57,951 nt of DNA from Paramacrobiotus metropolitanus. Taxonomy: Eukaryota; Tardigrada; Eutardigrada; Parachela; Macrobiotidae. The notes beneath the pieces were generated by a model, which worked only from the letters and a program-made list of their open reading frames with translations, did no database searches and was not told where the DNA came from. Below are positions 1-38,482 of this stretch, piece by piece. A program made the position numbers and the translations under genes. Location: NCBI RefSeq assembly GCF_019649055.1, contig NW_026570533.1, positions 1 through 57,951 on the forward strand, written 5' to 3'. Every line of letters begins with the position of its first letter. Position 1 is the stretch's first letter.

Positions 1-41
1 AGCCTATCATTCGGCTTCCCCGGCCAAAACAGCCGGCAACC

Positions 42-788
42 ATGCGGGCATCCAGACCGAAGCCTCGGATCTCCGACACCGATCCTGGATGGGTGCATGT
101 TCACGCTGCACTCAAGTCGCTGTCATGGTCGGGCCCAACCTACGCAACTCCGGAGTTGGCTTACCAGCTGCTGAAACATTGGCGCGTCGACAAGGACGGA
201 AGCTGGTTCGACCTTAGCCTCGACAGGGTGAAGATCTACTGTCGGATGGCATACGAGACTGGTGCCATCCTCCGGGTATACACCAGAACGGAACGACCGG
301 ACTACGTCTTTCCGAGGGAAGAACAAGACCCAGCGCCGAAGACTTGCCTCGGATGGCGGGACGCGGTGATCGCCTGCCTGCGGACGGATTGACACCCGGA
401 AGGATTAACTCGCCGGGAGATTTTGAACCACCTAATAGGTCGGTTCGAGTTCATACTGATGTCCGCTTACCCTCAACTGGAAGATGCACGGTACCGACCG
501 GTCCGACGAAAGGAAACCAACTTATACTACCTGGCCGACGAGCTGGAGTACGTCCTGGAGCAAGCCTGCCGACAGAAAGTCCTCGGATCGAGTGAGGGTT
601 ACAAGACCCACGGGCAGCGTTTCTCCGTCTTCTACTTACCTGAAGACTTCGGACAGCACCTGCCGAAGACGCGGGCAAGCTCGGCGAGCCCACCGAAAGC
701 TCCCACCTCGGCCGAAACGGAAGCCCAGAAGTGGTTGGCACGGGCCAAGTCAACTAACCCGGCTGACCTGCCGAAGAAGAAAAGCTAA
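42..788 (+). pseudogene. Tandem winged-helix-like accessory protein, one in-frame TGA
   Basis: One reading frame runs from the ATG at 42 to TAA at 788 and is interrupted only by TGA at 390-392. Residues 1-116 hold a first helix-turn-helix/winged-helix-like unit. After the stop a second unit begins with TRREI and continues through a helix ending near RQKVL. The same two-unit plan, including the T/S-R-x-E-I motif and a later RQ-L/V pair, occurs in the gene at 23227-24644 of the other element. This suggests a conserved DNA- or RNA-binding accessory protein. The C-terminus is basic (PKKKS). The TGA may be inactivating, read through or a sequencing error. It is followed by hairpin-rich noncoding DNA. 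Function is unknown; the fold is inferred from hydrophobic spacing. Confidence 0.5.
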
Positions 789-1029
789 ACGGAAGTACAT
801 CATCGGAGGTTCCTTGCCCAATAGGCGAGACCCTATAACCTCCGTAATGGGGATGTTTCTCTTGCCCAATAGGCGAGAAAGGAAAGGATCGGACAAGACC
901 TGACCGTACCCGACCGTTTAAGCTTACATCTAACCATAGAACGTTTAACCCAATAGGTTTACGTAATGACCCAAAAGGTTTAAAAACAAAAATAACTTAA
1001 CAATATTAAGTTAAGTGTTTTGACCACAG
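789..1029 (+). other. Inter-gene spacer with CAATA-loop hairpins and a 3' splice-site-like end
   Basis: Two near-identical stems (CTTGCC/GGCGAG) enclose the loop CAATA at 813-829 and at about 861-877. The first is clasped by an outer stem CGGAGGTT/AACCTCCG (about 804-843). Further hairpins lie at 947-959 and near 968-975. The end of the spacer is AT-rich, with a pyrimidine/branch-like stretch and CACAG at 1025-1029, just where the next open frame begins, so it may be an intron or leader. Confidence 0.5.
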
Positions 1030-3363
1030 CCTTCCCAGCCCCGAACGGAAGCCTACGACCCGGATTGCCAGGCGTGCAAGGCCAATAACAACTCTCCTCG
1101 GACACGCCAACCCTGCGCAGAATGCCTGTTACGGCACTTGGACAGACAAGCCGGGGATCACAGAGTCACACGACGGGACCAGGCTAACGCCCTGTACGTC
1201 CAGGTCGTCACCGGGAACCTGAGTGCCTACATGCACGCCGTCCATAACAGTCGTATCCTTGATGAGTTGGACGGTCGACAATTGCTCTACATGTGGGACA
1301 TGCAACGTAACCGCAGACGTACCCACGAGCCCGGCTGGGATAACACCCCAGCAGTCCCGGACAACGCCCGATTGGTCCATGCCCGTGAACAACGACGAGA
1401 GCAGGAGCGCGAGGACGACCGCCGAGAGATAGCGGCAGCTGACCGGAGAATCGCTAAGGCCCAGCGCGAGCGCGACGAGCGAGCACGCCAGAAGGAGAAT
1501 AAGAATCCAACCTTAGGCGTAGCCGGCGATTTACAGGCTAGGCTCATGGCGGAACCCAAAAGGTTCCCGAACGAACCCTCGGCACCCCTTAACGCCTTTG
1601 CGGACGTGCTGAATCCGGATCGGACCCTAAATACGTCCAGCGTCACGGACGCGTTTCAGGTCGGTCCCGCCCCACTCACCGGGTTGACGGTAACACTCAC
1701 TGGACCTGACGGCCGACAATATAAGGCCCAAATCCTCGATCCCCAACAAACGGAGGCTCTGCCGGCAATTCAGCGGAGCCAGGTGGAACAGCAGCTGGTA
1801 GCCCCACAAGAAGGTGGCTTACTCCAGCAAATGGACAGCGCACCCTCGCAGCCCCCGGCCCAACCAGTGGTTCGATCGGCAGAACCACCAGCGACGGCAG
1901 CAGTGACCCCAACAGGGTCCACTCCGTCTAACCGCAGAACCCAGAGTGTGTCGGACTTGGTACCCGGTGACCTGCGTCATAGGCTGGGAAGGGACCTACG
2001 ACACAAGCTGGAGGCTCAACATAAGCTCGCGACCGCGCGACAACCAGATGAACAGCCTTCGAAGGATCGGACCCGATCCTCCCCCGGCAAGCGATCCGGT
2101 TCGGAGGATACCGGGCTCGTCGTGGACTCTAATAGCAAGTCCCGGCGTAACTTCACGCAGCCTGTGGCCCGACACCAGACGGCTCGACACCCAGCCCTAC
2201 GACCACCCCCACCTTTGGAACAGCTGGACGAGCTGCCAGTGCAACAGCGTCCATTACCAGACCCGGAACCGGTAGTGCCAGCCCAATATGACCCTCGGTA
2301 CGACCATGCACGCCGACAGAGCATCGCAGTGGAAATTCCACACCCGACGGAACGGACGAATTACATCATGGGCACTATGCAGTACCGGGAGGATCGGCGA
2401 AACCAGATCTGGCACCTGGTCAACGACCTTCGGATCTTCCTTGACCATTCCGGATACCAACAGATGTTCGAACATCGGCAATGGTCCGAGGACTTCGAGA
2501 TGAATGATCGGCTGTCCTATGGCATCGGATTCCCATACTACCGGACGAACGGTTTGCCTAGCACAACCGACCCAGCGACTTTGGGATTACCACTTGACAA
2601 CCTGGATTGGTCTCAACTGAGCCAGCTCCCGTTGTTCTCTTCGGAACGGGAGATCACGGACCATACGGAATGGGTGGCGCAGTTCGTACTCACCGAGGCA
2701 CAAGCAGCCATGGTGATTACTGCAGCCAGAGCGGCCCAGGGTTTGCCCGAATACCTTGGCAACATCGAACCAGAAGCCCGGGGAGACGCTCCGCTGGCCT
2801 TCCAGACAGCTTTGCGACTGATTTTCGCGGCCCGACTCGGCCACCATCACAGCCACTACTCCCTGTACTGCGCGTACCGGAATAACAACATTCCGCCCCG
2901 ACTTCGGACGGCGGTGGCTCAGCTGAGCGCGCCGATGCGAGACACAGTGGTGGGATTATGGCTGCGTGACTTCTTGCTGACGGCAGAGCGATGGTACAGG
3001 GAATATCAGTACCATCCGGACGAGGAAAAGGATGTCGACGAAGCCTCGACCCTCTCGGAATGGTGCCGGACCCATCGCCACTTGCCGCCCGGGTTCACAT
3101 CACCACCGATGCCCGAGGGCAAGTCATCCTACCGGTATAACATGTGGCCAGGTTCATCATCCTCGGGCAGGAACCACCGAAGACGCGAAGCCCGCCGAAC
3201 CAAAGCTGAAAAGCCCGGACAGGAAGCCTCGGAATCGCAGTCAACCTGTACCCAGGAGGCTACATCCTCGAACCACCCAGGCCGACGGGAACGGGATAAG
3301 GATGATGACTCGGAAGGTTCCCACTTTGGTGGTGGAGCCCCGGTCAACGTGGACTTGGAGTGA
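1030..3363 (+). CDS. Coiled-coil / Gag-like accessory protein with N-terminal Cys cluster
   Basis: The frame is open from just after TGA at 1021 to TGA at 3363, about 770 codons, and the usable 5' boundary may be the CACAG acceptor at 1029. The N-terminus has two CxxC pairs separated by about 13 residues (near 1066-1125), as in a small zinc-binding fold. A highly charged Arg/Glu-rich coiled coil follows (about 1380-1500), then a long Pro/Gln/Arg-rich disordered stretch, then a helical C-terminal region (about 2340-3070) with Trp/Leu-rich segments, and a basic tail. The order of zinc-like site, coiled coil and helical domain is Gag-like, but no canonical Gag motif was recognised. At least two CAA(A/C)A-loop hairpins lie inside the coding DNA (1551-1567, 1905-1919). 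It follows the winged-helix gene in the same direction. Confidence 0.6.
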   Translation, partial: PSQPRTEAYDPDCQACKANNNSPRTRQPCAECLLRHLDRQAGDHRVTRRDQANALYVQVVTGNLSAYMHAVHNSRILDELDGRQLLYMWDMQRNRRRTHEPGWDNTPAVPDNARLVHAREQRREQEREDDRREIAAADRRIAKAQRERDERARQKENKNPTLGVAGDLQARLMAEPKRFPNEPSAPLNAFADVLNPDRTLNTSSVTDAFQVGPAPLTGLTVTLTGPDGRQYKAQILDPQQTEALPAIQRSQVEQQLVAPQEGGLLQQMDSAPSQPPAQPVVRSAEPPATAAVTPTGSTPSNRRTQSVSDLVPGDLRHRLGRDLRHKLEAQHKLATARQPDEQPSKDRTRSSPGKRSGSEDTGLVVDSNSKSRRNFTQPVARHQTARHPALRPPPPLEQLDELPVQQRPLPDPEPVVPAQYDPRYDHARRQSIAVEIPHPTERTNYIMGTMQYREDRRNQIWHLVNDLRIFLDHSGYQQMFEHRQWSEDFEMNDRLSYGIGFPYYRTNGLPSTTDPATLGLPLDNLDWSQLSQLPLFSSEREITDHTEWVAQFVLTEAQAAMVITAARAAQGLPEYLGNIEPEARGDAPLAFQTALRLIFAARLGHHHSHYSLYCAYRNNNIPPRLRTAVAQLSAPMRDTVVGLWLRDFLLTAERWYREYQYHPDEEKDVDEASTLSEWCRTHRHLPPGFTSPPMPEGKSSYRYNMWPGSSSSGRNHRRREARRTKAEKPGQEASESQSTCTQEATSSNHPGRRERDKDDDSEGSHFGGGAPVNVDLE

Positions 3364-6300
3364 AAGAGACCGGTAGCTGGACCCCAATAGGGTTAGGCTA
3401 ACCGCAAAACCGGTCGAACGGACATGACGACGTCTCCAATAGAGACGTATCCCATAGATGGAATTCATTCTGTGGAGCCGCAGATCGTTGGCCAATCACT
3501 TTATAGCCGTTAAACCATGATCAGCTACCGAGTCCGGACCCTCAATAAGGGATACGACGATCGCAGTGTCAACCACGTTCTGCTACCATTAAAAGAGTCA
3601 GCCACAAGTATGGCTGTCCGTGGTGATCTCAGTGAGGAAGGCAACCTGCAGACCGCATCTAACCACGACTGACCAGCCTGTCTTTCGATCCGAGCAGATT
3701 GCTCGATACCTCACCGGACCCTAAAGGCTCCGGGGTATGAGGCCCAATAGGCCTCCATCTGCGGAAGGATCCAGACTTCGGCATCATATAGGGACTTCCG
3801 TTCCTATATCTTACATAGCTCCAATCCATTGCTGAACAACGGCAACGGAAGCAGAATGCGAACCTTCTTCGATCCGAGCAGATGGCTCGATACCTCACCG
3901 GACCTAAAGGCTCCAGGGTATGAGGCCCAATAGGCCTCCACCTGTGGATGAACATTCTAAGTTCCGTCCCTCCGACGCGGGGAGCGATATCACCCACATC
4001 GCGGGAACGGAAATACCTCGGATCGAAAGACAGAGTCCAAAAGAAGTGGACCTGACCGGACTTCACCTCATGAAAGGCTCAACAACTACCTTGCGAACCC
4101 AATAGGTTCCGAGGCAGGTGCCCAGCTAGGCCTGATGAACCTTTAGGCCCTGGCAAGAGGGGGTTTGGCCGATAGGGAACCTGACCACTCTTGCCAGGAC
4201 CACCAAAATATGGATCTCACCTCACCCTCCGGAAATGGACGGTTTGAAGCGAAGTTAAACACGGCACATGAACCCCCGATAGCTTCCCCGTGAACCCAAT
4301 AGGTTCCAGGGAAGGAGCCCAATAGGCCGCCACGAGTTAGCGGAGCCTGATCCCCTGCGGACGACCGAGGCAGAAATTCAGACCTCGTCGTCAATAGAGG
4401 ATGACCGAACCGGCAACCCTCGGACTACCGTAGTTCTGGAAGAGAAGCCTCCTAAACCACGTTAGTCCGGACCTTCGCACGAAAGGCGGTTTCTCCGCGC
4501 AGATCAGCATGACCTGCTGTTCTGCACGGATAATCCACTCCGGCAGAAGACTCTGGAATCGAACCTCAGATGGATCCCTCGGATAGACCCGATAAGTACG
4601 AGTTCAATTTGGACCGTACCGGACGTCTCCCCAGGCTTCCCCTGGATGAACCGGACGGAATGTTCCGGTCTCCGGCGACAATGACAGGAGGCGAACCGAG
4701 CCAAAAAGCGAGGGGATGCAACCGAACTAAAGGGTTAGCCGACCCCCGGCGGTTAGCTGGCTCCAGCTGGATCAGCGACTCCGCCGACCTGCTATCCCCG
4801 GAGCTAAAAGGGAACATCATAGGGCGTGGTAGAATCCCGACCCACCATTGACTTAGGGAGTAGACCCCAATAGGGATACCCCGATGTCCAACCCTCCGAC
4901 CTTCGGACTAGAAGGGTCGAACCCGAAGAAAACCTCAATTCACCGGGATACATCGCACGAATAGCGGCTGACCAGAGGCGAGACGGGTACAACACGGCTC
5001 GTCATTGGCCAGCCCTCCGGCAGAAGGATCCTGGAGGCTGGCCCTGGAAGAAAACGATAACTATGGAACGTCACACTGGGACGAATCGTACGAATAGCGA
5101 CTGGACAAGCACAACTGCGCACAACACAGCTTTCCCTGTTCAGGTCCCTCCGACAGAGGACTCCTGGCTGACCAGTTCCGTAACTTGGACCGTAGAGCCC
5201 AATAGGCTCTTACCCCTGAACCTTACCAGCCGGGACCTCGTGGATATGGGCAGCGAAAACGTCCTATATCAGCAAGGCCCTGGTGACAGCCTCAGTATCG
5301 GACCCTTCGTACGTAAGGAGGTCGGACAGAAGTTCCCAGCATGATCTGCCGGGTACTCCTGCTCGTACCCAGCCGGCAGAAGGACCCGGTGGAACTACAG
5401 TTCCATGACTCTAACCCTCCGAGCCCAATAGGCTCCTATTCCTTAACCGAATGCGGACTGTTTGGACCGGGAAGCGACACCTCCTGACCACTCGATCCGC
5501 ACGACCAACCATTTCCGGAACTTAACCCAAGAGGATTCCGCTAACATGGTCCCGAAGAAGCCACTGCCCTCTTCGGTACCGTGTTTGCCAACAGACCCAT
5601 GGACACCCCGGGAATCGGAGTAGTAGCTGGCTGACTGACCTCCACTTGAAGTCAGCACGAGAGCCCAATAGGCCTCGGCAGCATAACTCCGGCGGAATCC
5701 GTCGTACGAAAAGCGACGGGACGGTGCTGCGCGGCGCGATCCGCTTCGCTCCACCGGCTTGTCCCTCCGGCAGAAGGACCCTCGGAGGATGCAAGCCTTC
5801 GCAGATCACGTACAACCACGATCCGATACCATGTCAAGTGGCGCAGATCAACCACGATCTCTACCTTTCTGTGGATGCCCATCGAGGCCCAATAGGCCTC
5901 CCTTCCACCCCGGAACGGAACGGAGGAAGTGGGACATTAGGGCACACTCATGCCCTTACCCCTACTCACAACGCTGTGTTGGACTAATGGTATGAGTGAC
6001 CGGCATGACCATTTCACCGTGAATCGGACTGTGGTCACCGGAAGGATGTACCAGGACATTAGGGTACACGGGTGAATGCGTATATACAACATCGGTATAT
6101 AATCATTCCTCCGCGTCCGGCATGACTGAACCCCAATGGAGGCCACGGACGCCCATAACTACGCCAACAGGCCCAATATGCCCTTAGCCCCCATATTCCG
6201 GCATCCCGGATGTTTCCGCCTAAGTGGAAGCACGGGATCAGCCGAGGAACGGACCAGCTTGGACTCCGTCTTTAAAACTTAGAGTGCCTACCTCGTTGCT

Positions 6301-7721
6301 CAGACCCAATTAGGTCTTATATAGCCGCCGAGGAGCCTCTTTTGCATGATTTTTGCTAGTCACCCGGTGGACATTTCCAGCATCAAGCGGACTCCCACCA
6401 GAGCATGTTGGGCCAGTCTCGTTACCGAGGCTTGGACCCCCGGACACCGAGGCTAATTGACCCTCGGATACTTGTTCGGACCCTGTCCAGCGGCATTGAC
6501 CCTCTCCATGTTACCCAATAGGTGACGGGAGACGTTAAAAAGGGTTTTTGCCCGGGCAGAATGCCTTTGGACCAGCCTTAGCGGATGCTGACTACCTCAC
6601 CACCGAGGCTACCCCGGACACGGAGGCTGCCTCGGGCAGCAACTTTACCTTACCGGCGAGACCCTCGGTAGAGTTGCCCAATAGGTGACCTACATCGTTA
6701 ACAATGGTTTTTGCCGAGATGAAACGACCATCAGACCTTTGGATACCGAGGCTCGGAACCTCTGACTCTCGAGGCTCGAACCTCCGACCCTCGGACCCTT
6801 CGAACCCCGGCGATCATCCTCTCCGAGTTACCCAATAGGTGACAGGAGACGAATCTAGGATTTTCAGCCGAGCGGAACGTCACTATACCCATTTGCTAGC
6901 GCAGCCGAGGGTACAACCCGGACTCTAACTCGAGTACCGAGGCTGCCAATGGACTTAGACTCAGCAACCGAGGCTGAGCTTGGACTTCGATTTTGTAACC
7001 GGAGCTGACCCTCGGTCACCGAGGCTACCATCGGACTTTTGAATCTTGAAGCCAACCGGATACAGGGTCGGACTCCCGCATAGAGACCATACCATCGACT
7101 ATCCAACCCTATGGAAACCAGGCATTGACCGGTCCTTGCTGCCCAATAGGCGACAGGACATCACATAACGGTTTTGCCCGGGTCAAACCTCGGATCACCG
7201 GCCTTCCCCGGAGGATCCACCGATCAATAGACCCAACAGGTCTTATCCTGCACTCAGAGAGGGTACCTTATGGTATTCGCGGATGCGACAGTGCCTCTCC
7301 ATCAACTCTACCAGATGAACCCCGGCCGGACGAAAGTACGACCCGTCTTACCCGGCTGAGAAGGTTCCGATTGATCTTTTACCGGAGGATCCCGGTCGGA
7401 AAGTGTGTTTCACGCCCGTTTCACACCCGGCAATGGAGATCCGTACCCTTTACCTGAAGTTGATAGGGTCGAACCTCCGACCCTCGGTGAAGTGAACCGG
7501 TACCACTGGGTATCCCGAGAACCGATGCCTCGGACCTGGATGGCCGGATATCCTGTGGACTGGAGCCCCCGTGAGCGGACGAGCTCTAGTCGGAATAAGC
7601 ACCCGGCCCAAAGCCCCGGACCAAAGACTTTGAGTTTACTTTTCTAATCTCGAAATGATGTTCTCAATTTTATTGATCTTTTCACTAACCTGCTCACCAG
7701 GAATTGTGATGTTATTTTTAC
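3364..7721 (+). other. 4.4-kb noncoding tract densely packed with CAATA-loop hairpins
   Basis: No convincing gene is present. The tract contains about twenty copies of the nonamer CCCAATAGG or close variants, most forming a hairpin whose five-base loop is CAATA while the stem sequence changes: CGTCTC/GAGACG (3431-3447), GAGGCC/GGCCTC (3739-3755, 3922-3938, 5884-5900), GAACC/GGTTC (4095-4109, 4292-4306), AGAGCC/GGCTCT (5194-5210), GAGCC/GGCTC (5421-5435), AGACC/GGTCT (6302-6317, 7229-7243) and GTTACC/GGTGAC (6510-6526, 6827-6843). Several have outer stems such as TCTCC/GGAGA. A second hairpin family with a GGCAGAAGGA apex and a run of ACCGAGGCT repeats (about 6420-7030) are also present. Conserved loops with changing paired stems argue for function as RNA. 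Confidence 0.65.
3684..3944 (+). repeat. Direct repeat pair (3684-3771 and 3868-3944)
   Basis: About 80 bp beginning TTCGATCCGAGCAGAT are repeated with few differences, each copy ending in the GAGGCC-CAATA-GGCCTC hairpin. A reverse copy of the first twelve bases occurs near 4018-4029. The pair suggests that the hairpin tract grew by local duplication. Confidence 0.75.
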
Positions 7722-7735
7722 TAGAGAGAGAGAAA
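7722..7735 (+). other. Candidate polypurine tract
   Basis: The run AGAGAGAGAGAAA ends immediately before a TGG start. This is the position expected for the plus-strand primer just upstream of a 3' LTR. Confidence 0.5.
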
Positions 7736-8436
7736 TGGAATAATACTTTATTTTTTTTACTTTTTCGCCGTTACGGACACGACCAACAGACGCCTACACC
7801 GGTCCAACAACACCACCGACCGACCTTCGGATTTCGGCCGTGAGTTGTATCGCCACCACGGGTCCGGAGGAGAACGCGGCACCGAGAGACCTTCGTCATC
7901 GGACACCCCCGAGGCGCAGCCACCGACCCCAATAGGGTCGTGTGCGGAGCGGGCACTGGAGCGGTACGAGGCCGGTCCTTCGCAGGGGCTCGGACTCCCG
8001 CCCAGAGGCATGTTGGGCCAGTCGCTATGGCAGCCTACGAGCAGGCAGCCAGCGACAGTCCCGCTTCCGGTGTGCTGACTCACACCGAGTCGCACTCGCT
8101 GTCGAGCGCTAGATCGGCCTCGACTCAGGCAGCTTTCCGCCCAGCCTTTCGTCTCGGCCAATCACCGGCCTCGATGTAGGCGGAGCCACGCCTCCTTTCT
8201 CCATCTCGGCCTATCAGCGTTCGTTCGCTCGTGTTGGATCTGCCCAGTGCCGCATTAGGCTTTTTCCCATGCTTTCGGCTCGATGTGCCGTTCATTTTCA
8301 CTCACTAGCTGACATTCGGTGATTTACATTCTACAGCTCACATCGAGCCTTTGTGTTTTGGTTCTCTGTACTTTATTGCTATCCACAATAAAGCCTTCTC
8401 CTCACTATCGTGAGCCTTTGTTCGCCTGCTGTCACA
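7736..8436 (+). repeat. Probable 3' LTR
   Basis: The block begins TGGAATAATAC after the purine tract and can be closed at GTCACA (8436), giving TG...CA ends. It has an AT-rich TATA-like stretch near its start, a CGACCC-CAATA-GGGTCG hairpin (7924-7940), a 16-base match to the internal tract (GCATGTTGGGCCAGTC near 6403 and 8006), AATAAA at 8387-8392 and a small CTCAC/GTGAG hairpin at 8401-8414. The partner LTR is outside the window, so both ends are estimates. Short open frames inside it are not supported as genes. Confidence 0.5.
8387..8392 (+). promoter_or_regulatory. Polyadenylation signal AATAAA
   Basis: A canonical hexamer lies about 45 bases before the proposed LTR end and is followed by a T/G-rich stretch. 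Confidence 0.55.
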
Positions 8437-10429
8437 TTGTGCCAAACTGCAGAATCAAACTTAAAAAAGTGCAGATATCTATATAATGAGAAGATCACAG
8501 CTTGACAACTGCTTGCTTGTTAGCGTTCTGTCCGCCTCTTTTTGTGCACCTTCCTTGTGTACTCCATCTCCGAGATTCCGAATGTCCCTCGAGTCCGCCT
8601 AGCTGCAGGGTGAGCGGAAGCATTCTGGTGTGTTGGTACAATCCATGTTCTACATACTGTATTATAACGCCCCACTTAAACACAAATCACAAACCCAAAA
8701 ACACAAGAGGGAACAGCAAATGCGGCTGCTACGAAAAGATCTCTTCTATTTTATCCAGCTCGGGAGAGTTTTCATTACACAGACTGCATATTTCCCTCTT
8801 TGTTTGCATACCCCATCGCTGCCGAAAGGTCTCCTTGTTGTCCAGTGGAGGCTGCACTATTTGTTTCCGACTTTGCCAAGAAGCGCCTTGATACATTCTC
8901 CCCACGGGCGGACAGGGGCGGTGAAGGCTTCTTGAACAAAGGGTGCATTGCTGCAGAATTTGATATTGAGAGTTCGGTCAGCTCATCACAGTCACTTCAC
9001 CGGCGGCGCCCCGACATTTAACGGTGAGCATGCGATCGATGCGGCTTAGGTATCCACGCAGGCACGTCAAGCAACCGCGACTAGGGATTCACCGCGGTCC
9101 CACGGAACGAGTGTCATGGCAGGCATCCGGTCTCTTTTGATCATTAACTGACATGCCTTTCGGTTCCTTCCTGCAAAGGAATCCGGATGGTCTACATCCT
9201 GCGGGCGAATTCTGGGCTTGTGCCGCCATGCAGCACAATGCCTGAACGCGTATGTGTTAAGAACTTACGACTGTTATCCGGCAGATAGTCCAGACACGCG
9301 GCCGGAAGCGAGCGTATCCAGAATCCAGATTCCGGTACCGATAAAGCGCCACGACCACTGCAGCAGTGCGGTGAGATGTCAGGCCTGAAAATGCCCAGCT
9401 CCGAGTAAAACAGCATGTAAAAACTACGAAGGTCAATGTGAACCTACCGTGAGTTGAGCGGATTTGGTGTTTGAATACCTGCACGTATAATGGTAGTTTC
9501 ACGTGAAACGTAACTGTAAGTAGTTTTCCAAGCTGTTTTACTCGTGTTTTACTCGCGTAGCCGATGTGTCCCCAAAGTCTGGGTGACAAAAACTGTTATT
9601 CTGTACAATTAAATCCTGGCGCTCAAGTACCAGTTATCATGGACCGTACTACAGAAATATTATAATTATCATTGCAAATGCCAAATTTTAACCGGTGGAA
9701 CTCATAGCTTTTTGCTGCCGACTCCTTCGTTATCGACAGGCAGGTGTCTGGTACGTCGGCAAACCAGTTAACTCATGGAGAAACCGCTGACCAAATAAAC
9801 TTAATCATTGACGTTCCACAAAAAAGCGATTCATTCCTTTTAAACAAATGCCAAATTCCTGGAAAGACTTTGTTCACAAGATTTAAATATAATTGTTTAC
9901 TGCACGAAAATGTCTGTTTATGTTAGCATACAAAGCATGAATAAGGATATTACATTGATGTACAAGTTCACATACCCGGAAGCATTATGTTTTTGGTTTT
10001 TGTTCATAAAGCCACTGCAGTACAGTAATATTTATGGTTTTTAGGATTTATTCTAAAAAACAACCAGCTCGTTCCCATTATAACCGTGAATTCCAAAATA
10101 ACAATCAAGTGCACTGGAAAATATGCACCGGAAAAACGGGCAAAATAACTAAGACTGATAAAAAACCATGTATTTCTGTATGTTTTTCTCTAAGGTATGA
10201 AAACAGTGAAGCCAGCCAGCAGCAGTATAACTGTGCGAAATAAAGTATTTACTAATGCGAACACCAGCTTGACTTTCAGATAATGTGCATAGGTATATCG
10301 TCCGCCATTATTCGTCCGTGGAACAGTAGCCGGCATTTATATTTTTTGCCAAGCGGCCCCAAGAGCGTGCTAAAGTGGAGAATGCCATCCTTCTTAATGA
10401 TCGATCCGGAAAGTCTCTATCATCCTCCA
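8437..10429. other. Intergenic DNA, no supported gene
   Basis: AT-rich host-like sequence. Open frames here are short and show no recognisable motif or splice framework. One 50-bp stretch (about 8511-8560) recurs near 57653-57702. Confidence 0.5.
8511..8560 (+). repeat. Dispersed repeat copy A
   Basis: It contains CTTGTTAGC, TGTCCGCCTCT and ACCTTCCTTGTG in the same order and spacing as a copy near 57653-57702. It starts about 75 bp after the proposed LTR and may be the edge of another dispersed repeat. Confidence 0.5.
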
Positions 10430-14499: not shown

Positions 14500-15720
14500 A
14501 CTGGACGAGTCAGTGACCGAAACACTATCACCGACCACTGAGCGGAATCTCTAGATGAGTGGGTGACCGAGGTACCACCACTGACCAGTAAGAAAAATCA
14601 CTAGACAAGTGAGTGACCGAAACACCATTACTGCCCACTGAGCGGAATTTCTAGGTGAGTGAGTCATCGAGCGGGCTTTGCTCTTGCTCACCTAACGGGC
14701 TCTGTGCACTGGACAGTAGTTGTAGCAGGGTCACATCCTCACCTATCGATTTTTCTCCTTACCTAGCGATATTTCTTACTGGACAGGTTGAGCTCGGTCA
14801 GTCACTCACCTAGTGAATGAGTGCGTCAAAAAATCGCTAGGTGAGTACGTGACCGAGCTACCACCACTGTCCAGTGCCCAGAACCCGTTAGGTGAAAGAG
14901 TACCGAGATACCACTACTGTCCAGTGCACAAACTCCGTGAAGTGATCTAGTGACCGAGCTACCACTACTGTCTAGTGCATAGATCCCGTTAGGTAGATGG
15001 GTGACCGAGCTACCACTACTGTCCAATGCATAGATCTCGTTAGGTAGATGGGTGACCGAGCTGCCGATACTGTCCGGTGCATAGATCCCGTTAGGTAGTT
15101 GGATGACCGAGCTGCCAATACTGTCCAGTGCATAGATCCCGTTAGGTAGATAGGGGACCGAGCTACCAATGCTGTCCAGTGCACAGAGCCCGTTAGGTGA
15201 ACGCGTGACCGAGCTAACACTACTGTCCAGTGCACGAACTCCGTTAAGTGATCTAGTGACCGAGCTACCACTACTGTCCAATGCATAGATCTCGTTAGGT
15301 AAATGGGTGACCGAGCTGCCGATACTGTCCGGTGCATAGATCCCGTTAGGTAGATGGGTGACCGAGCTGCCGATACTGTCCGGTGCATAGATCCCGTTAG
15401 GTAGATGGGTGACCGAGCTACCAAAACTGTCCAGTGCATAGATCCCGTTAGGTAGATGGATGACCGAGCTACCAATGCTGTCAGTGCACAGAGCCCGTTA
15501 GGTGAACGCGTGACCGAGCTACCACTACTGTCCAGTGCACGAACTCCGTTAAGTGATCTAATGAGCGAGCTAGCACTACTGTCCAGCGCATAAACTCCGT
15601 TAAGTGATCTAGTGACCGAGTTACCAGTCCTGCCCTTTGCATAGATCCCGTTAGGTAGGTGGGTGACCGAGCTGCCAAAGCTATCCAGTGCACAGAGCCC
15701 GTTAGGTGAACGTATGACCA
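14500..15720. repeat. 51-bp minisatellite with an internal inverted block
   Basis: Tandem units carrying GTGACCGAGCTACCACTACT and CCCGTTAGGTAGATGG repeat with a 51-bp period from about 14850 to 15720, roughly 17 copies. Degenerate copies extend back to about 14500. Between about 14685 and 14815 the units are in the opposite orientation. Because 51 is divisible by three, the minus strand has long open frames made of 17-residue repeats (for example LDSIGSSVTHLPNGIYA). AT-rich blocks with similar TATAATAAG motifs lie on both sides (14000-14100, 16050-16150). Confidence 0.85.
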
Positions 15721-26727: not shown

Positions 26728-26835
26728 AAAAAGAGGGACATTTACAAAATCGCATTTTTATGTGGACTGGAACCTCCGACCTCCAATGACGAAGCAACGG
26801 AAGCCTCTACTATACTAGCGGGGCCGCTCTACACA
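26728..26835 (-). ncRNA. tRNA-like unit 8
   Basis: A-box-like GCTAGTATAGTAG, B box GAGGTTCCAGTCC, and T run at 26732-26728. First unit in element order. Confidence 0.55.
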
Positions 26836-28208: not shown

Positions 28209-29000
28209 TCACTTCCAGTAGTTGTGGGGAATGCCACGCAGAGAGTGACGCTGCACAACGATGTGCTTACGCTTCTTCTTGGGCGTCCGGTCAGGACCGA
28301 GGTCTTCATGCACCCACAGCATATCCGCAGGCAAGGTTTTGACTGGATCCGGAAAATCCAGCTTGTGCTCTGCCCACCAGTCATCCAAATCTGAATCTGG
28401 CTCTTTCCAATCTTCAAGATTGCCAGATCCCCAGATATTTGGAACAGGCTCGTCATCATCCAAGGTGTACAAAATACGGCCACACGAACCCGGGCCATTA
28501 TTCTCGCAGTCAACACAACAGAGTTCCTCCTCCATCACGCGCTTGTTGTGTTCTACCATGCGCTGATGGCGCTCGCGTGGGGTTTCCGGCGGGTTGAATA
28601 AGGATGGCAAGCCAAATTCCTTACGAAGCCGTTCAGATGCTTCACGTAGGACAGGAGTGTCGGGATACAGAATGAAACCGATCTTCAAGTAATACATCTG
28701 CATTTCCGACGCACGAACTTTCTCGATCTCTAAAGCCACCTGAGCCTCAAAATCCAATGGCTCGGGTTCTGTAAAATTCAAGGCCATAATTTCGGAATTA
28801 GAGAGTTTACAAAGCTCCGAAATAGAAATATACGGGCCGTCCAAAGAACGCCAAAAGTACACAAACTCGGAAATGTGTTCCTGGTTCGCCAGAACATACG
28901 CAACGGAATCAGAAAATGTGACGAACTTACGGCGCTTCTTCTCATCTTGCTCAGCCCAAATCATACGCCCGCGCTCGGATTTATAAAATTCCATCTCCAT
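28209..29000 (-). CDS. Cargo protein B (263 aa), acidic, small Cys cluster
   Basis: The ATG at 29000 is preferred because the upstream extension of the frame (to 29126) is hydrophobic and unlike the rest. The protein starts MEMEFYKSERGRMIW, is helical and acidic, and has a Cys cluster near residue 180 (CCVDC then C seven residues later). It ends in a basic stretch (PKKKRKH) that could be a nuclear signal. The motif GCGGTTGACA lies about 160 bp upstream (29164-29173) and recurs upstream of other cargo genes. Family not recognised. Confidence 0.6.
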   Translation of the reverse strand: MEMEFYKSERGRMIWAEQDEKKRRKFVTFSDSVAYVLANQEHISEFVYFWRSLDGPYISISELCKLSNSEIMALNFTEPEPLDFEAQVALEIEKVRASEMQMYYLKIGFILYPDTPVLREASERLRKEFGLPSLFNPPETPRERHQRMVEHNKRVMEEELCCVDCENNGPGSCGRILYTLDDDEPVPNIWGSGNLEDWKEPDSDLDDWWAEHKLDFPDPVKTLPADMLWVHEDLGPDRTPKKKRKHIVVQRHSLRGIPHNYWK

Positions 29001-29565
29001 TTTAAAAGAAAAGTAGGGATTTAAACGGAAAAGAATGTGAATGAGAGAAGACGAGAGAGCTGCAGATCCAAACATGAAAACTGCTGACACACTGCAGCTG
29101 TGCAGACCAGAAACAGCTGTGTGCACTCAAACTGCGACTGCCCTAACATTTGGCTACGTTCGGGCGGTTGACACGCCAAGAGTACTCTACACATTCTAAC
29201 ATGAAATCTAAGATCTTTCTTGAGATTTTTAGAGTTTTCGTGTTTCCTAACGAGCTTTTAGCTATTTCCACACAATTTGAAACTAGCAATAAGAATTTCA
29301 ACCTATTTAACCAGATTTTATTGCGGAACGGTCCAAATCTATCTCCTGCGGATAAATGGTAAGCCAAAACACAGCGGAGTCTGTACAACATAAGATTATG
29401 TCAAAAAGCTAACCGTAAAAGGGAAACGACTGTACATAAACTTAAAACTAGAGAAGAACTATTTATCTCCAGCTGCGCCAAAGTATAGATGGCCAAGCAA
29501 AATATGAACTATACCAGAAAAATAGTAGGAAAAGCCAATTGAATGCTGAGTTTATAGGCAATTGG

Positions 29566-30414
29566 CTAAACAGCGGCACCCATGTTATCATCGTCGTCAT
29601 CACGACGTGGACGATGGCGTTTGGCGATCGAAGCATCCAGTTTACCCGGGCCACGCTTCTCCTGTCCTTCATGTAACAGCCAACGAGTTTGTTGCAATTG
29701 CTGCTGTTGTTGGGATGACGAGCGCGGATCCGCTGCATTCAGACGATCGAAATAGCGCTGCTCTGCTTTCAAGCGGTGATCCTCGTCAATATTGGAAACC
29801 AATTCCTCGATATGCTGATTATACGCGTCCACGAGCGTAACAACGGCACCATGGTCTCCCGTTTCCCCCGGGACATAATCCAACGCAGTGAGAAACTCGA
29901 CAGGATTGCGCACCACATTGATGCCGTAGTTCCGACGGAGTTCGCAAACAATTTGCCCGATGAGCCATCCTTGGCGGAAATCCACCCGCAGGTAACGCAA
30001 CAATGCATAGTGTGCGTCCTTTGACAAATCTAGAGTGTGAACAAAGCGGTTGTATTTGTCCAACGTCATCTCCGATCCATTATGGTAAATCTTGCCGCGG
30101 AAACGCAATCGAGTTTCGGGATGTAGCTCCACATGATCGGTGTCCGGATTGTAGGGACAATGAATCAAACCAGACGAAGGAATATAACTCTTTCCTCCAC
30201 GAGCGTAGTCGTGCGGAGACGGACGAAGGCCACAATCCACCATGCGATGGGACCATTCAAATGTTGGTTCAGGCCATCCAACATGAGGATCGGGATACAT
30301 TGGCGGCTGAACATCGGCCAAGACATCTGCCAAAACCTGCACTGAATCTTCCGAGGAACTCGTGGTATCCTCATGCTGATAAGAAGGATGTGACGGCACT
30401 TTCGGACGATACAT
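29566..30414 (-). CDS. Cargo protein A (282 aa), paralogue of the gene at 21122-22614
   Basis: ATG at 30414, stop at 29566. Acidic/Ser-rich N-terminus, then a compact helical region with CPYNPD (around residue 85) and SKDAHYALLRYLRVDF, then a Gln-rich helix and a basic/acidic tail (KRHRPRRDDDDD). The central region aligns by eye with the spliced protein at 21122-22614 (YAPYNPD; FYPRLYLSRFLFRDG; L-N-P-V-F spacing). No membrane segment or signal peptide, so it is not an envelope. It lies about 500 bp after Pol in the same direction. Function unknown; two diverged copies in one element imply duplication and retention. Confidence 0.65.
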   Translation of the reverse strand: MYRPKVPSHPSYQHEDTTSSSEDSVQVLADVLADVQPPMYPDPHVGWPEPTFEWSHRMVDCGLRPSPHDYARGGKSYIPSSGLIHCPYNPDTDHVELHPETRLRFRGKIYHNGSEMTLDKYNRFVHTLDLSKDAHYALLRYLRVDFRQGWLIGQIVCELRRNYGINVVRNPVEFLTALDYVPGETGDHGAVVTLVDAYNQHIEELVSNIDEDHRLKAEQRYFDRLNAADPRSSSQQQQQLQQTRWLLHEGQEKRGPGKLDASIAKRHRPRRDDDDDNMGAAV

Positions 30415-30762
30415 TATAGCGGTATATCAGAAATTGTTAGGCATAAAATCAGTACAAGGAAGGAGAACACACAAACGAGACCGAAGGCGACTTAATGACA
30501 GACACAAATCTTTGCAGGTATGAATTTGATTTGCTGCCAGCTAAGAGCAACTTTCCTACGCAGCTAATATGCAGGAAGAGCAACGAACGCGACCACGTCA
30601 CTGCGGACTGTCCAATGGCGAATACGACTACTCAATCCGTACGTACACACAGATTTAATGGGAACTTTCCAAACAATTTTAATGCGTTAAGGAATAAAAT
30701 TTCAACCCTGTAAAATTTAAAAATAAAAGGAATTTACATATTTAGACGGCCGCTCAGCTTGT

Positions 30763-30993
30763 TTAATCGTTATTGCATAAGGTACAGATTTTTATGAAAT
30801 AATCACAATCACGCCTCATTTCCGGCCAGAAGAGACGAAGACTTCTATACAAGTAATCATACGGCGTAATATTACTGTTATACTTATGCAACAACCGCCG
30901 ATGTACAGACTCAACTAAGATTTTACGCCACTGATAAGGAATGAGAATTTTAGGTACCCTTTTGCAATGTCCTGTTTTTCTCCATAATGGCAA
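30763..30993 (-). pseudogene. Third HHCC zinc module, out of frame at the Pol 3' end
   Basis: In the -1 frame relative to Pol, 76 codons encode PYQWRK, then VHRRLLHK, then YLYRSLRLFWPEMRRDCDYF and CTLC. This is the His-His-Cys-Cys pattern of integrase zinc-binding domains. Its upstream half (FWKYRQMECSDMMLW) is still in the Pol frame. The frames meet at a run of five A near 30975, where one base too many or a ribosomal slip would join them. The module resembles the one between protease and RT more than the integrase one. Confidence 0.65.
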
Positions 30994-33900
30994 ATAATGC
31001 CGTGTACTTTTAGAACTAAAGGAAGATGCCAGGCCGCGTATGCAGATTCCTCAAGAGTGCAATCTCCATCAACAACGGCGTCCCACAACATCATGTCACT
31101 GCACTCCATCTGGCGATACTTCCAGAATTCCTGTTTATCAAGGGCGTCATCGGATATTACACCCTGAGGCCAGAACTGCTCAATTGGACGTGCCCAAGCC
31201 GGAACTGGGAGAATTCTATCTTCTACAACTGCTAAAGAAGTTTTTGCTGGCTGCGCCGGCCCAATCTCCAATGCGTTACAGGTAATTGACGAAGTATGAC
31301 TGGCCAATGGTTCAGCTGGTTCGGATTGACCCCCTCCCGGCTGGGATACGTTCAGAATAGCCGGTTCTCTATCATTTGTGGCCCTGCGCTTTTTAGGATC
31401 AGCCGACGGGTCTCTTTTACGCTTTTTGTCGTTCATCTGGTTCACAAGTCTTTCCACAGGTTTCACCACACGCCCGGAGCGGGTTTTAAGCAGTGGAACT
31501 GCTTCCATCTGGTTATCCAGATAATCAGCATACTCAGCATCAAGGCGCGACGATGCTGAATCAACTGGCGGAATCACCGGCGGCGGCGCGGGCGCCTCAA
31601 CTAATTCATCGGGGCACTCCTTCTCCACACAATCAAGCAATTTCGATAAGTGCTCGTCTTGTAGGATAGTATCAACATCGCGAAAATTATACGGTTTTAG
31701 GCGGCTGACATGGACCGTGTCAGTTTTAACGTTTCCGCGCCGGTTACTTTTCACTACATAATGCACCGGCCCTGACTGACGCACAATTTCCCATCCAGCA
31801 GTCCAACGGGGCATAAGGGATGGATTTTTCCCCACTTTCCGATGAAGTACGTACACCAAAACCTGATCACCGCCTTTATACGAGGTATGGGATATATTGG
31901 CATCATATCTAATTTTATCTTTTAGTTTATGGCGAAACTCTTCTGCATTCACCAAGTCCAGGGCCTCACCAAGGCCGCGCTGCATCTGCTGTACATATAC
32001 GTGAGCAGGAACTACGAAATCCTCTTCGAATGGCAAGAAATTATTTATCGGTAAACGCATCTCGGTGCCGTGCATCATGAAGAATGGTGAACGGCCCGTT
32101 CGCTCCACCACCTTACTGTTAAATGCCGCACAAAGTGCTGGGAGGAATATATCCCAGTCACTTTGCTGTTCATTAACATACTTCGCTAACGCCTTTTTGA
32201 TTTCCCCTACACGTTTTTCAACAAGACCGTTACCCTGCTGGTGGCCTGACGCCGTCGGTGCGTGAGCAACACCCGCGAGAGCGAGAAGCTCCCGAAACAT
32301 TTCAGACATGAAATTACTGCCGCGGTCTGAAGTGATGTGTACAGGCATACCAAAGACCGTGAGGATACGACGATAAAAGAACAACGCCAAAGTGGCAGCG
32401 TCATTTCTCTCAACTGCCTCTGCGACTATGTATTTGCTCCCGTAATCCACTGCAATAATTATGTTTTTGTTTCCAGATTCCGTCGTTGGGAGGGCCGGAG
32501 CAACGTCAATTGCCCAAACTAACCGGGGAGGAACCGTCGGATTTGACTGGAGAGCACCGGCCGGTGCTGTAGCAAGAGGATTTTGTGCGAGGCACGCCGG
32601 GCAAGAGGCACAATAACTTTTAACAGACTCGAACATGCGGGGCCAATAAAAATATTTATACATCCTCTTATAGGTGGCCAGGACGCCCAAGTGTGCCGCT
32701 AACGGGGAATCATGGTTATCCTGAAGGAACTGAAGCCGCCAGTGAACAGGTACATACATGCAGTAATAGATCTTCCGGTTTAATTCAAACTTGTAGTATA
32801 CAACGCCCTGTTTCACTACAAATTTGTTTAGGTGTAATTTCTCGTGCTCTGACATTTTTTCCTTTTTATTTTCTAGGAGCAGCCGCCATCTGACAATGCG
32901 AGCGTCACGAGACTGCTCCTCGGCCCAATGTGAGGCTTTATCATCCGTAATCAGCTTTTGGACTTTATCAGCGTCGAAGGCTTGCATATCTTCCTGGGAG
33001 ACTGCCTTCACCTCAGCTGACATCATTTCGAACCGGATGTCCACATAGTCTCTCTCCAAAACCGCAAAGCAGCATTCAATCATCGCTGCATCACCAGCAA
33101 AAGCCGAAGTTTGCCGATAATCAAATTCGATATCCGAGTCATCAGAGTCGGGTTCCGGTTGCTCTCCTGGATTTCTACTCAGGGCATCAGCAATAACGTT
33201 CTCTTTGCCAGGTATGTGAACAGGTTTAGTGTTAAATTGCTGGATATACAACGCCCAGCGCCCAAGGCGGCCAGCGGCATCGCGCATATTATTTAAAAAC
33301 ACTAATGCTTGGTGATCAGTTTGAACTTCAAACTGATAATCAGACAAATAGTGTTTCCATTTTTTAAGAGCACAAATAACTGCATAGGCCTCAATCTCAG
33401 TAGGGAAGTAGAGCCTTTTCTGAGTCTCGGTTAACTTGCAGCTTAAATACGCGATAGGACGCCAGTTTGTTGGCACATCCGTCGGTTTGTCCTTGGGACA
33501 TTGCATAAGAACTGCAACCACAGCAATAGTACTGGCATCGACGATAACACGCGACAAAGCCTCCGGATCATAACGGGCCAAGACCGGCGCCGTCACCAAG
33601 GCTTCCTTCAATTGTTCCACAGCCCTGCACTGATCCGTTCCCCATCCGAAGGTAACTTTTTTAGGAATCAACTTCTGAAGCGGCTCCGCAATCTCTTGAA
33701 AATTCTTAATAAATTGGCGATAATATCCAACCATGCCCAAAAATCTGAGAATGTCTTTCTTATCTTTTATAGGGCCAAATTCCTTAACCGCCTGGATCTT
33801 CTCTGGATCCGTACTTATACCAAATTGATCGACCGTATGACCCAAAAAGGTAATCGAATTAACAAATAATTCTGTTTTTTCAGGGTTAATGGTCCAGCCG

Positions 33901-36900
33901 CATTCCTGGAGCCGCAGGAAAAGCTCCTGTAAATCCCGCATATGATCAACCAGGTTTTTACTGAAGACAATAATGTCATCAATAAAAACCAACACGTTCC
34001 TCCACTTCATGTTCGCAAGCGTCAAATCCATGGCGCGCTGGAAAGCCGAAGGCGCGTCCTTCATCCCAAAAGGTAAGACTTTGTATTGAAACGTGAACTC
34101 TTCTCCCACCATCGTTGTTTTACACCGGTCTTCTGGTTTAATTTTTATTTGCCAAAAGCCACTTTTTAAATCAATTTTACTGAATACCGTAGCTTTATCG
34201 AGGGCATTAAGAATATCGTCAACTCTGGGAAGCGGGTAACTACTGCCCATTAACCGTTCGTTTAATTTACGGAAATCCACGGTTAAACGCCTGGATTTAT
34301 CCTTCTTTTTCACAATACAAATAGGACTTCCCCATGCCGAATTTGTAGGCTCAATAATACCGTCTTTAATCATTTCCTGTGTTTTAGCCTGGAGCCATTT
34401 TCGATCTTCAAACGATGTACGGTACGGAGGAGTTCTGACCGGTAAACTTGTACCAGTATCAACCGAGTGCTCATATATGGTACAACACCCGACAGGACGC
34501 GCTTTAGTCGGTAAGACTGACTTTGACTGATAAAAGATTCGTTTTAAATCGTCTTTACTGGGACAAATGTCTCCCACTTTAATCTTGGCAAAAGTTTCTT
34601 CTGTTTCAGGATCAACAGCACTAACGGTGGGTGGCGGCAACAGCATAGCCACACATTCATTAATTTTCTCCGGCACTGGAATGCCCTTGTCATCACTGGG
34701 AATACCGCCAATCGCCTCTTGACAATTCTCCTGAAACTCTGGAGAGTCCATCTGGTACACTGCGTCCACGAGTGCAACTTCGCCGAGGTTAGTTTCTTCA
34801 TTTAAAACCAGCGGTTTGTCCGAAACATTGACAACGCAAACCCGACAATTACCGTATCCATTTAGCGTTAAGACACCATCTAACAATACCGCATTCTTAT
34901 TTGATTCGGGAATTTTTCCTTCGTAAAGAAAGGGCTGAGTATATAAATATTCATCCTGGAATTCCATAAACTGCTCATCGGACATAGACGTCGTAGCGCG
35001 AATAATTCCCTGCGGGTGGGGTTGAATTATGACCGGCGAAGCTGGAAACAGCTCCATTTTAAAGCAGTCAATCGGACCAGGTTCTGGTTCAAAACGGTAA
35101 ATATCTTGTTCGACCGAATTAACTTCAACCTGTGCTTGCGCCTGTTTCAGATGGGCGTCCCTGTATGCCAGTTCGATGACATCCTTCGAATACACGCAAG
35201 CCGGGATGTCTGTGGATTCACGAACGTCTTGAGACCGTTTCGGTAAGTTTTTAGCCACCTGCGACTGTTGGACGGGGGCCTGCTGCACTGTCTCAGCCGA
35301 CATTTGACTTGCGGCTTCTCTTTCTGCGTATTCGCGTCTAATTCTACGGCTGTAACTGGACTTTTTACGCCTGGGAGAATTCCTTCCCGAACCTTCCGGT
35401 GATGGTTCGTAATTTCCCACAGTGGGTTGTACTGGATTAACAGCTGCAGATTCGCTGAATGCTTTTTGTTTCTGAATCTCATTCCAGATTTCCCACTGCT
35501 CATTAATATTAACATTTGTCGAGACATCGTAGGTCGCTCTGACATCCTCTGAAACGAACTCAGACGGCTTCGGCGGCGGTGAGTAACTAATCATTTGAGA
35601 ATTTATTTCCCTTTGCTTCTCCGCCTGTTTATCTTCGTAGGAGACCGGACACGGGCCGATATTAATGGGTTTCATTCCATCAGCAGGGACGAAGCTACCA
35701 ATCTCGAATTCTCCTGCCGGGGCTGGATTATCGACGGAAAAGGTGACTTTACGTTTTCCTGTAGCTTTCTGAGCATGTAATTGTTCGGTACGCTTCAGAG
35801 TTTCAAAGTGCCGACGATCGTTAACAGAATTTCTGCACACATCGCAGTTCTTTTCGTACCGTTCAATTTCAATTATACAGTCCGGCCAGTAAAACAATTT
35901 TACTAAATACGGATATAATTTTTCATGCCGGCCATACGCTTGCTTATGAATTAAAATTTCGTGAAAGCAGGCTATCAACTTTTGTCGCCATTGGTGCGGC
36001 ACGTAAATCCGTGGGCATGCACCGGAGTGATCGGGTACTCTACACAATATTCCTTCGCAGATTACGAACCGATTTATTTCGTACTTGGTAAAATTCGTAT
36101 TAGCGTGCGACGGCTTTTTGTACATTTTGTACCACATCCGGCTATCGACGCACTGCTGTTGAGTTTCGCGCCAAAACTGCGGATCACGGAACCGTTGCTC
36201 CGAAGGATACAACTGTTTGTCCTGAGGCCTATCCATCGGCGTCATCCACTTCTTCAATTCTGGATTGCGTGCCATGTAAGACGGATAATCGTGGACTTCA
36301 TCAACGTCTCTGCGGTCACGTTCAACAGGTATAACATTTAACAGCTTATTATCCATGCTAAGACATTCGACAACCTTCGCTGATTTCTCTAAAACACCCA
36401 TGTAGAGATACTTTGCCGCAGGATGTTGTTTCAGTACTGCGTCCACTGACGAAATTTGAATTGGCAGTTGCAGGGAGTCGTCACCCCCACGAAATTGACT
36501 GGAGCCAGAATTAGGCACAGGGTTGACCGATGCCGAAGACGAAGTATTTGAACTGCTTGCCGAATACAGTTGTGAAACTTTTTCCTTTTTAATTGGCGGC
36601 TGGGAAGACGCCTGTTCTCTCCCCCGCGAACTAGACTGCATATTATTTACAATTATTTCGCCGCCTCCCCCACGAACTTGACTTGGTTCTGGGTTTTTCT
36701 CCGTCTTAATTTCTTGTTTAATTGCAGGACGGACGGGTTCATCCACGACGGAAGCTGCTCTAGGGAGATATTGACGAATCATCTCCTGTACTACACTGCG
36801 CACAAACTCTTCATCACGCTGGTCGGATCCCTTTTTGGCCGGTGCCACCTGCACGGGCACAATTTCTTTAGCTTCCGCTTTCACTGGAGCATTAGCCGCC

Positions 36901-38465: not shown

Positions 38466-38482
38466 CTAAAATTTATCCTTAT

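Follow-up and report, generated by a model that had tools for sequence, protein, structure and literature searches.

Packaging signals dispersed along an RNA have been described for the small icosahedral viruses parechovirus 1 (GxU motif) and MS2 (TR-like stem-loops), where many stem-loops per RNA present a common short loop on varied stems, are conserved in relatives and were found by binding to purified coat protein (PMC5431903, PMC6281560). For long terminal repeat (LTR) elements, RNA structures thought to be recognised by Gag are described as Psi in retroviruses and Ty1; selection of their own RNA is understood in few cases, mostly via Psi near the 5' end (PMC8396678). The Burro elements of planarians are Ty3/gypsy-type elements of an invertebrate host, exceed 20 kilobases (kb), carry extra coding regions and are described as encoding a single, very large polyprotein that includes env-like and apoptosis-related domains (PMC6431247). 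Here we describe a family of small RNA hairpins with a fixed loop in a giant Ty3/gypsy-type LTR element of the tardigrade Paramacrobiotus metropolitanus. The 3' end of this element, truncated by the contig edge, occupies bases 1-8436 of the stretch that was analysed (57,951 nucleotides (nt), contig NW_026570533.1, contig label C313; hereafter the window).

The hairpins resemble the parechovirus and MS2 signals in that several stem-loops share an apical loop motif and this motif is conserved above its flanks. They differ from them in being known from sequence alone, in residing in an LTR element of 23-33 kb, in the strong covariation of their stems and in a loop that is specific to each of two sister lineages. 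Retroviral Psi has its place near the 5' end, whereas this element carries 26-38 small, equivalent hairpins all along its internal region, and in contrast to the single polyprotein of Burro about nine separate open reading frames (ORFs) were found in its C4 copy. The consulted parts of the Burro description mention no hairpin family (PMC6431247), and those of a paper on tardigrade transposons name Gypsy elements and mention neither a hairpin nor a giant element (PMC11071193). The first-pass annotation of the window knew of no hairpin family with a CAATA loop in LTR elements, and our literature search among open-licence papers likewise found none.

The unit is a 17-nt hairpin with a stem of 6 base pairs (bp), a CAAUA or CAACA loop and two inner pairs that are mostly C-G. 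CAATA occurs 28 times on the plus strand of window positions 1-8000, and 21 of these sites are flanked by at least three contiguous Watson-Crick pairs. Elsewhere in the window the figure is 1 of 62 for the plus and 0 of 51 for the minus strand, and the single minus-strand site within positions 1-8000 is not flanked in this way. A covariance model (R1), whose training set includes window hairpins, gave 22 matches at E<0.05, every one on the plus strand, the first at 813-829 and the last at 7924-7940; a scan of the rest of the window with R1 gave none at E<0.05, the sole other match at E≤1 having E 0.72. For this reason a second, held-out model (R2) was trained on 40 hairpins taken from the 5' parts of other copies, none of them identical to a window 17-mer. 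R2 detected 24 window matches at E≤1, every one within 813-7940 and on the plus strand, and 20 of them at E≤0.026. Both models thus confirm the family of about 20 CAATA hairpins that the first-pass annotation had reported at 813-7940.

Across 26 oriented loci and the window, 24 distinct CAATA and 10 distinct CAACA hairpins with 5-bp stems were counted, the next commonest loop reaching 3, and five block-shuffled sets held 0-1 CAATA hairpins of this kind. The total of hairpins with 5-nt loops was at the shuffled level (232 vs 219-243); the excess is limited to CAAYA loops. Pairing exceeded chance at pairs 1-6 and was at chance level at pair 7. In an unbiased loop test the 5' half of the C4 copy scored 0.97 bits, only slightly above the shuffled maximum of 0.91, as the density of hairpins is lower in coding sequence. 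The loop consensus was not above shuffles in the other Ty3-type element of the window (24-43 kb, minus strand) and in the host sequence at 43-57.9 kb, and a search of window positions 1-8500 with 4227 Rfam families gave no match at E≤1.

Covariation was scored on 115 distinct 17-mers (306 occurrences) picked by the core CCCAAYAGG alone, with the outer pairs unselected. The score was 0.540 compared with 0.155 (standard deviation 0.016) in shuffles; 0 of 500 shuffles reached it, which is not a probability, as related copies are non-independent. Controls with slid partners scored 0.053-0.182 (0.140-0.182 for a one-base slide). All 64 matches in two whole copies (26 and 38 per copy; covariance model, E≤0.3) lay on the sense strand, and no antisense CAATA with a stem of at least three pairs was found across six copies. 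At pairs 3-5 of CC-GG sites, G.U was seen 35 times with 59 expected and A.C 13 times with 45 expected; both mismatch types are depleted, G.U less than A.C, as for sense RNA (p 0.028 given composition). Local folds of about 300 nt closed 17 of 21 window core sites with a probability above 0.5, compared with 2 of 25 other CAAYA sites. The first-pass annotation had taken compensatory stem change around a fixed loop as the mark of an RNA structure and had proposed a covariance model as the check; with such models run on the window and other copies, covariation above shuffles and one-strand matches, its reading holds. The covariation and strand results show that the sense strand of the element encodes many fixed-loop hairpins with covarying stems.

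Conservation was compared between the window's subfamily and one with flanks 67% identical, with sites defined in each direction. Sites defined in the window's subfamily were 96-100% identical at loop positions (89% at U/C) and 96-99% at the two inner pairs; for sites defined in the other subfamily the values were 98% (84% at U/C) and 91-99%. The outermost stem position was kept no better than flanks (48-52%). Among 84 distinct aligned pair states, some of them possibly from hairpins that are not true orthologues, 45 were unchanged, 7 were changed on both sides with the pair kept and 14 on one side with the pair kept. Judged by this conservation, the hairpin loop and inner pairs are selected.

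Hairpins occur across the 5' leader, the Gag candidate described below, other genes and, above all, the 3' untranslated tract; pol has few of them and the LTR none. The 19 coding sites (17 in the C4 copy, two in the window) include hairpins in all three reading phases. In the phase where CAAUA followed by G would read CAA UAG, the loop was CAACA in 7 of 7, while the other two phases held CAAUA in 7 of 12, CAACA in four and CAAAA in one. An open frame rules out CAAUA in the CAA UAG phase by definition, and the informative part is that hairpins stand there with an allowed loop. Stop-codon readthrough at CAA UAG is an unlikely function, with zero in-phase CAAUA among the 19 coding sites.

Relatives of the element were sampled on C37 (L058; pol 72% identical) and C42 (L059 and L060; pol 86% identical in one part and 66% in the next). 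R1 found nothing better than E 0.44 in L058-L061. Hairpins with 7-nt loops were in threefold excess in L058 and L059 (29 and 25; shuffled means 9 and 8, maxima 16), and those with 5-nt loops in two- to threefold excess over shuffles in both. The 7-nt loop consensus reached 5.97 bits in L059 (CACAGAA; shuffled maximum 2.18) and 2.23 bits in L060 (shuffled maximum 1.34). The sister loop reads (A/C)AC(A/G)(G/U)AA and is closed by C-G. At 28 sites picked by the loop and one closing pair, a pattern read post hoc from the loci tested, covariation was 0.703 compared with 0.185 (standard deviation 0.040), with 0 of 500 shuffles reaching it. In L061, a further copy 94% identical to L059, 10 of 18 loop sites had a stem of at least four pairs (antisense, 0 of 1), and L061 and L058 share one homologous site at which the stem differs as CCAAC/GTTGG and CCGAC/GTCGG.

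A covariance model of the sister family (R3), supplied by L059-L061, had 54 of its 55 matches at E≤0.5 in L058-L061 on the sense strand. In the window's copy of the CAAUA element, the one scanned with R3, this model gave nothing better than E 0.15, and its best match in the whole window (E 0.052) lay at 26791. The sister core alone was not raised genome-wide (1270 vs 1316 for the control), and the claim of a sister family is therefore based on pairing and covariation in L059-L061. These show that a second lineage, sister to the first and present in the same genome, possesses covarying hairpins of its own, with a different loop. For the third lineage, L058, a 5-nt loop consensus of 2.25 bits, slightly above the shuffled maximum of 1.70, and three R3 matches at E<0.03 are suggestive. 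Separately, hairpins of the form ccgac...gtcgg with 5-nt CTCAG or AACAG loops cluster at L059 4769-5399, perhaps as a further sub-family.

Searches of the whole genome with the hairpin core CCCAATAGG revealed 1360 occurrences vs 710 for the reversed control; GRSCCCAATAGGSYC, the same core with three stem letters added on each side, had 136 matches vs 5. Among the 100 GRSCCCAATAGGSYC matches listed, all were paired, one of them via G.U, and 85 lay within 35 kb of an LTR, ORF9 or pol match; of the 15 remaining, two on C92 and two on C23 fell in related 3' tracts (BLAST). At twenty isolated genomic CCCAATAGG sites, pairs 3-6 were formed at 7-9 of 20, as by chance; one isolated control site of the twenty (L049) had five contiguous pairs. 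By these counts the hairpin family is concentrated in one element family. The first-pass annotation had suggested a test for restriction to the element family and for excess over host DNA; the pattern matches and the chance-level pairing of isolated cores speak for a concentration in that family. Eleven GACCCCAATAGGGTC sites lie away from known copies, possibly as 3' remnants of the element (C32:1210175; C48:1005964 and 1010125; C57:205960; C59:390871 and 414250; C86:566713; C93:460553; C103:471162; C105:392967; C111:337915).

One derivative of 8.5 kb (L055, C325:31426-40383) has no pol. What remains of the element is roughly its first 7 kb and its last 1.7 kb, with 16 hairpins at E<0.05, and the LTRs are 99.8% identical. 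Because pol is lost and the LTRs are nevertheless this similar, the derivative is probably a recent non-autonomous passenger, moved in trans by the proteins of another copy.

The element itself is, by its LTRs and domain order, a Ty3/gypsy LTR retrotransposon: in the C4 copy, aspartic protease, reverse transcriptase, RNase H and integrase follow in Ty3/gypsy order (Pfam; L015, L016), and LTR spacing was 23-33 kb in six other copies, which were fetched in pieces. The frames downstream of pol (ORF6-9) had no Pfam match at E≤0.01, and no extra domains reached the cut-offs. ORF9 (741 amino acids (aa), plus strand, 1138-3363) is 35-37% identical to its relatives in the sister lineage. Scoring of 7988 candidates gave no homologue at E≤1e-3, and a sequence search of the PDB gave none at E≤1; an AlphaFold2 model of an ORF9 fragment (window 2284-3210), calculated from the single sequence, had a predicted local distance difference test score (pLDDT) of 38, too low for interpretation. 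The first-pass annotation had taken the protein at 1030-3363 as Gag-like and as the possible reader of the hairpins. Given its place downstream of pol and the lack of a Pfam, PDB or homologue match in these searches, it is probably not Gag. ORF2 (1077 aa) lies upstream of the protease and contains one CCHC knuckle (CX2CX4HX4C) at residue 947, also found in the sister ORF. It had no Pfam gag match; from its position and knuckle, ORF2 appears the better Gag candidate. Eight short genome stretches match window 2271-2506, within ORF9, at 69-80%, hinting at a wider protein family.

A fixed loop on varying stems implies a reader of the loop. We propose that the loop and the top of the stem would form the face contacted by an RNA-binding protein, while the rest of the stem would serve to present the loop. 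As the loops differ between two lineages of one genome, this reader is more likely to be encoded by the element than by the host. Many sites per RNA may then nucleate the assembly of the element's own Gag (ORF2), or of another structural protein, on the giant genomic RNA, and such assembly would select and compact the element RNA for packaging into particles. In our judgement there is an even chance that the hairpins act as packaging or assembly signals at many sites, recognised by a protein that the element encodes. The dispersed packaging signal suggested by the first-pass annotation remains the best single explanation, and it gains from the different loop of the sister lineage; the conservation there of both the knuckle of the Gag candidate and ORF9 is in its favour. 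Several results weigh against it. Two of the five covariation measures (pairs changed on both sides, further pair types) were not above shuffles, 18 of the 84 distinct orthologous pair states were broken, many copies being in decay, and 4 of 21 window core sites were not closed in local folds. The 3' untranslated tract has the most closely spaced hairpins, a distribution that would equally suit a function of the 3' untranslated region (UTR), and the ORF2 knuckle is the sole RNA-binding feature recognised. The pol-less derivative with its 16 hairpins fits packaging signals, but most of the 5' leader and gag region is likewise present in it, and a classical 5' packaging signal would explain its mobility as well. 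A further proposal, which we put forward tentatively, is that the sister Ty3-type lineages tag their RNAs with orthogonal hairpin codes (5-nt CAAYA vs 7-nt MACRKAA loops), each present in many copies and read by a cognate element-encoded protein.

The same sites in the sense RNA might instead serve to export the giant unspliced RNA from the nucleus, or act in its localisation, translation or stability, with a reader from the host or the element. This is possible, though we think it somewhat doubtful: 3' UTRs commonly carry regulatory RNA elements bound by host proteins, and the density of the hairpins does peak in the 3' untranslated tract, with three more between ORF8 and ORF9, but coding frames, that of the Gag candidate among them, contain hairpins too, and the different loop of the sister lineage is easier to reconcile with element-encoded readers than with a single host factor. 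It is improbable that the hairpins merely compact or protect the RNA with no trans-acting reader. Their closure in local folding (17 of 21 core sites) would agree with such a role, yet an invariant loop would be unneeded for it, whereas the loop is conserved at 96-100% (89% at U/C) against 67% in the flanks and, among hairpins with 5-nt loops, only CAAYA loops are in excess.

A feature acting at the DNA level, such as a palindromic transcription-factor site, a cruciform or palindromes from template switching, appears very improbable. The hairpin core contains CCAAT and template switching can create palindromes, but the hairpins lie on one strand only, their outer stem letters covary instead of being fixed, G.U is tolerated above A.C, the loop fits the reading frame and other 5-nt loops are not in excess. 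Least probable of all is a short selfish hairpin repeat copied around the element. A few hairpins do fall within duplicated blocks of 40-46 nt; however, stems differ, with changes on both sides at aligned positions, the loop and inner pairs are what most of them share, and the fall of pairing to chance by pair 7 points against it.

The individual window hairpins all lie on the plus strand and, unless stated otherwise, have the loop CAATA and are matched by both R1 (E values in brackets) and R2. Upstream of ORF9 they are found at 813-829 and 861-877 (0.00086 each) and at 945-961 (0.0062); an A+T-rich 8-bp hairpin at 993-1013 has a CAATA loop without C-G closing pairs, was missed by both models and is a doubtful member. 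Two lie within ORF9, at 1551-1567 with loop CAAAA (0.041; R2 E 0.024) and at 1904-1920 with loop CAACA (0.0016). Downstream follow 3379-3395 (0.0028) and 3431-3447, matched by R2 at E 0.53, whose second pair T-A is C-G in the subfamily copies L029 and L030, both sides being changed. Further hairpins stand at 3739-3755 and 3922-3938 (0.00016 each), 4094-4110 (0.0009), 4291-4307 (0.00051), 4314-4330 (0.0024; R2 E 0.099), 4862-4878 (0.012), 5194-5210 (0.00035), 5420-5436 (0.00073), 5660-5676 (0.0029; R2 E 0.065), 5884-5900 (0.00016) and 6510-6526 (0.00076). The hairpin at 6673-6689, matched by R1 (0.0053), is poorly formed in the local fold of this copy (p 0.01). The remaining ones are at 6827-6843 (0.00076), 7138-7154 (0.0022), 7228-7244 with loop CAACA (0.0011) and 7924-7940 (0.00027), the last one ahead of the LTR. 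All seven stems quoted in the first-pass annotation are present, although AGACC/GGTCT (7228-7244) encloses CAACA and not CAATA. Its placement of hairpins in the noncoding tract and inside a gene (the two in ORF9, with variant loops) also stands, while none lies in the LTR, the nearest ending 70 bases upstream.

The 3' LTR (8011-8436, plus strand, TG...CA) contains no hairpin of the CAATA family. The 16 bases spanning its start (GCATGTTGGGCCAGTC; window 8008-8023) recur in the 3' tract at 6403-6418 with similar preceding sequence. The large frames ORF6-8 after pol (L016 4562-9998, L017 2-3925) have no Pfam match. They seem to be absent from the sister element on C42, where only about 0.4 kb separates the end of the pol match from the start of the ORF9 match. 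Elsewhere in the window, a second Ty3/gypsy-type element (28209-41032, minus strand), in which no hairpin family was found by the loop-consensus test, has a Gag-Pol-like frame of 2451 aa and an upstream frame of 619 aa, and a tandem array at 14849-15709 (17 copies of a 51-bp unit) overlaps a minus-strand open frame.

Packaging capacity has been named as one possible limit on retrotransposon length (PMC6431247), and the hairpins offer one answer to how an RNA of 23-33 kb may be selected and condensed. With dozens of equivalent sites per RNA and different loops in two lineages, specificity becomes directly testable by loop swaps. If the reader is Gag, multi-site packaging signals would extend from small RNA viruses to retroelements. 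Orthogonal codes, if true, would keep particles from packaging the RNA of the sister lineage, and deleted copies would parasitise their own lineage only.

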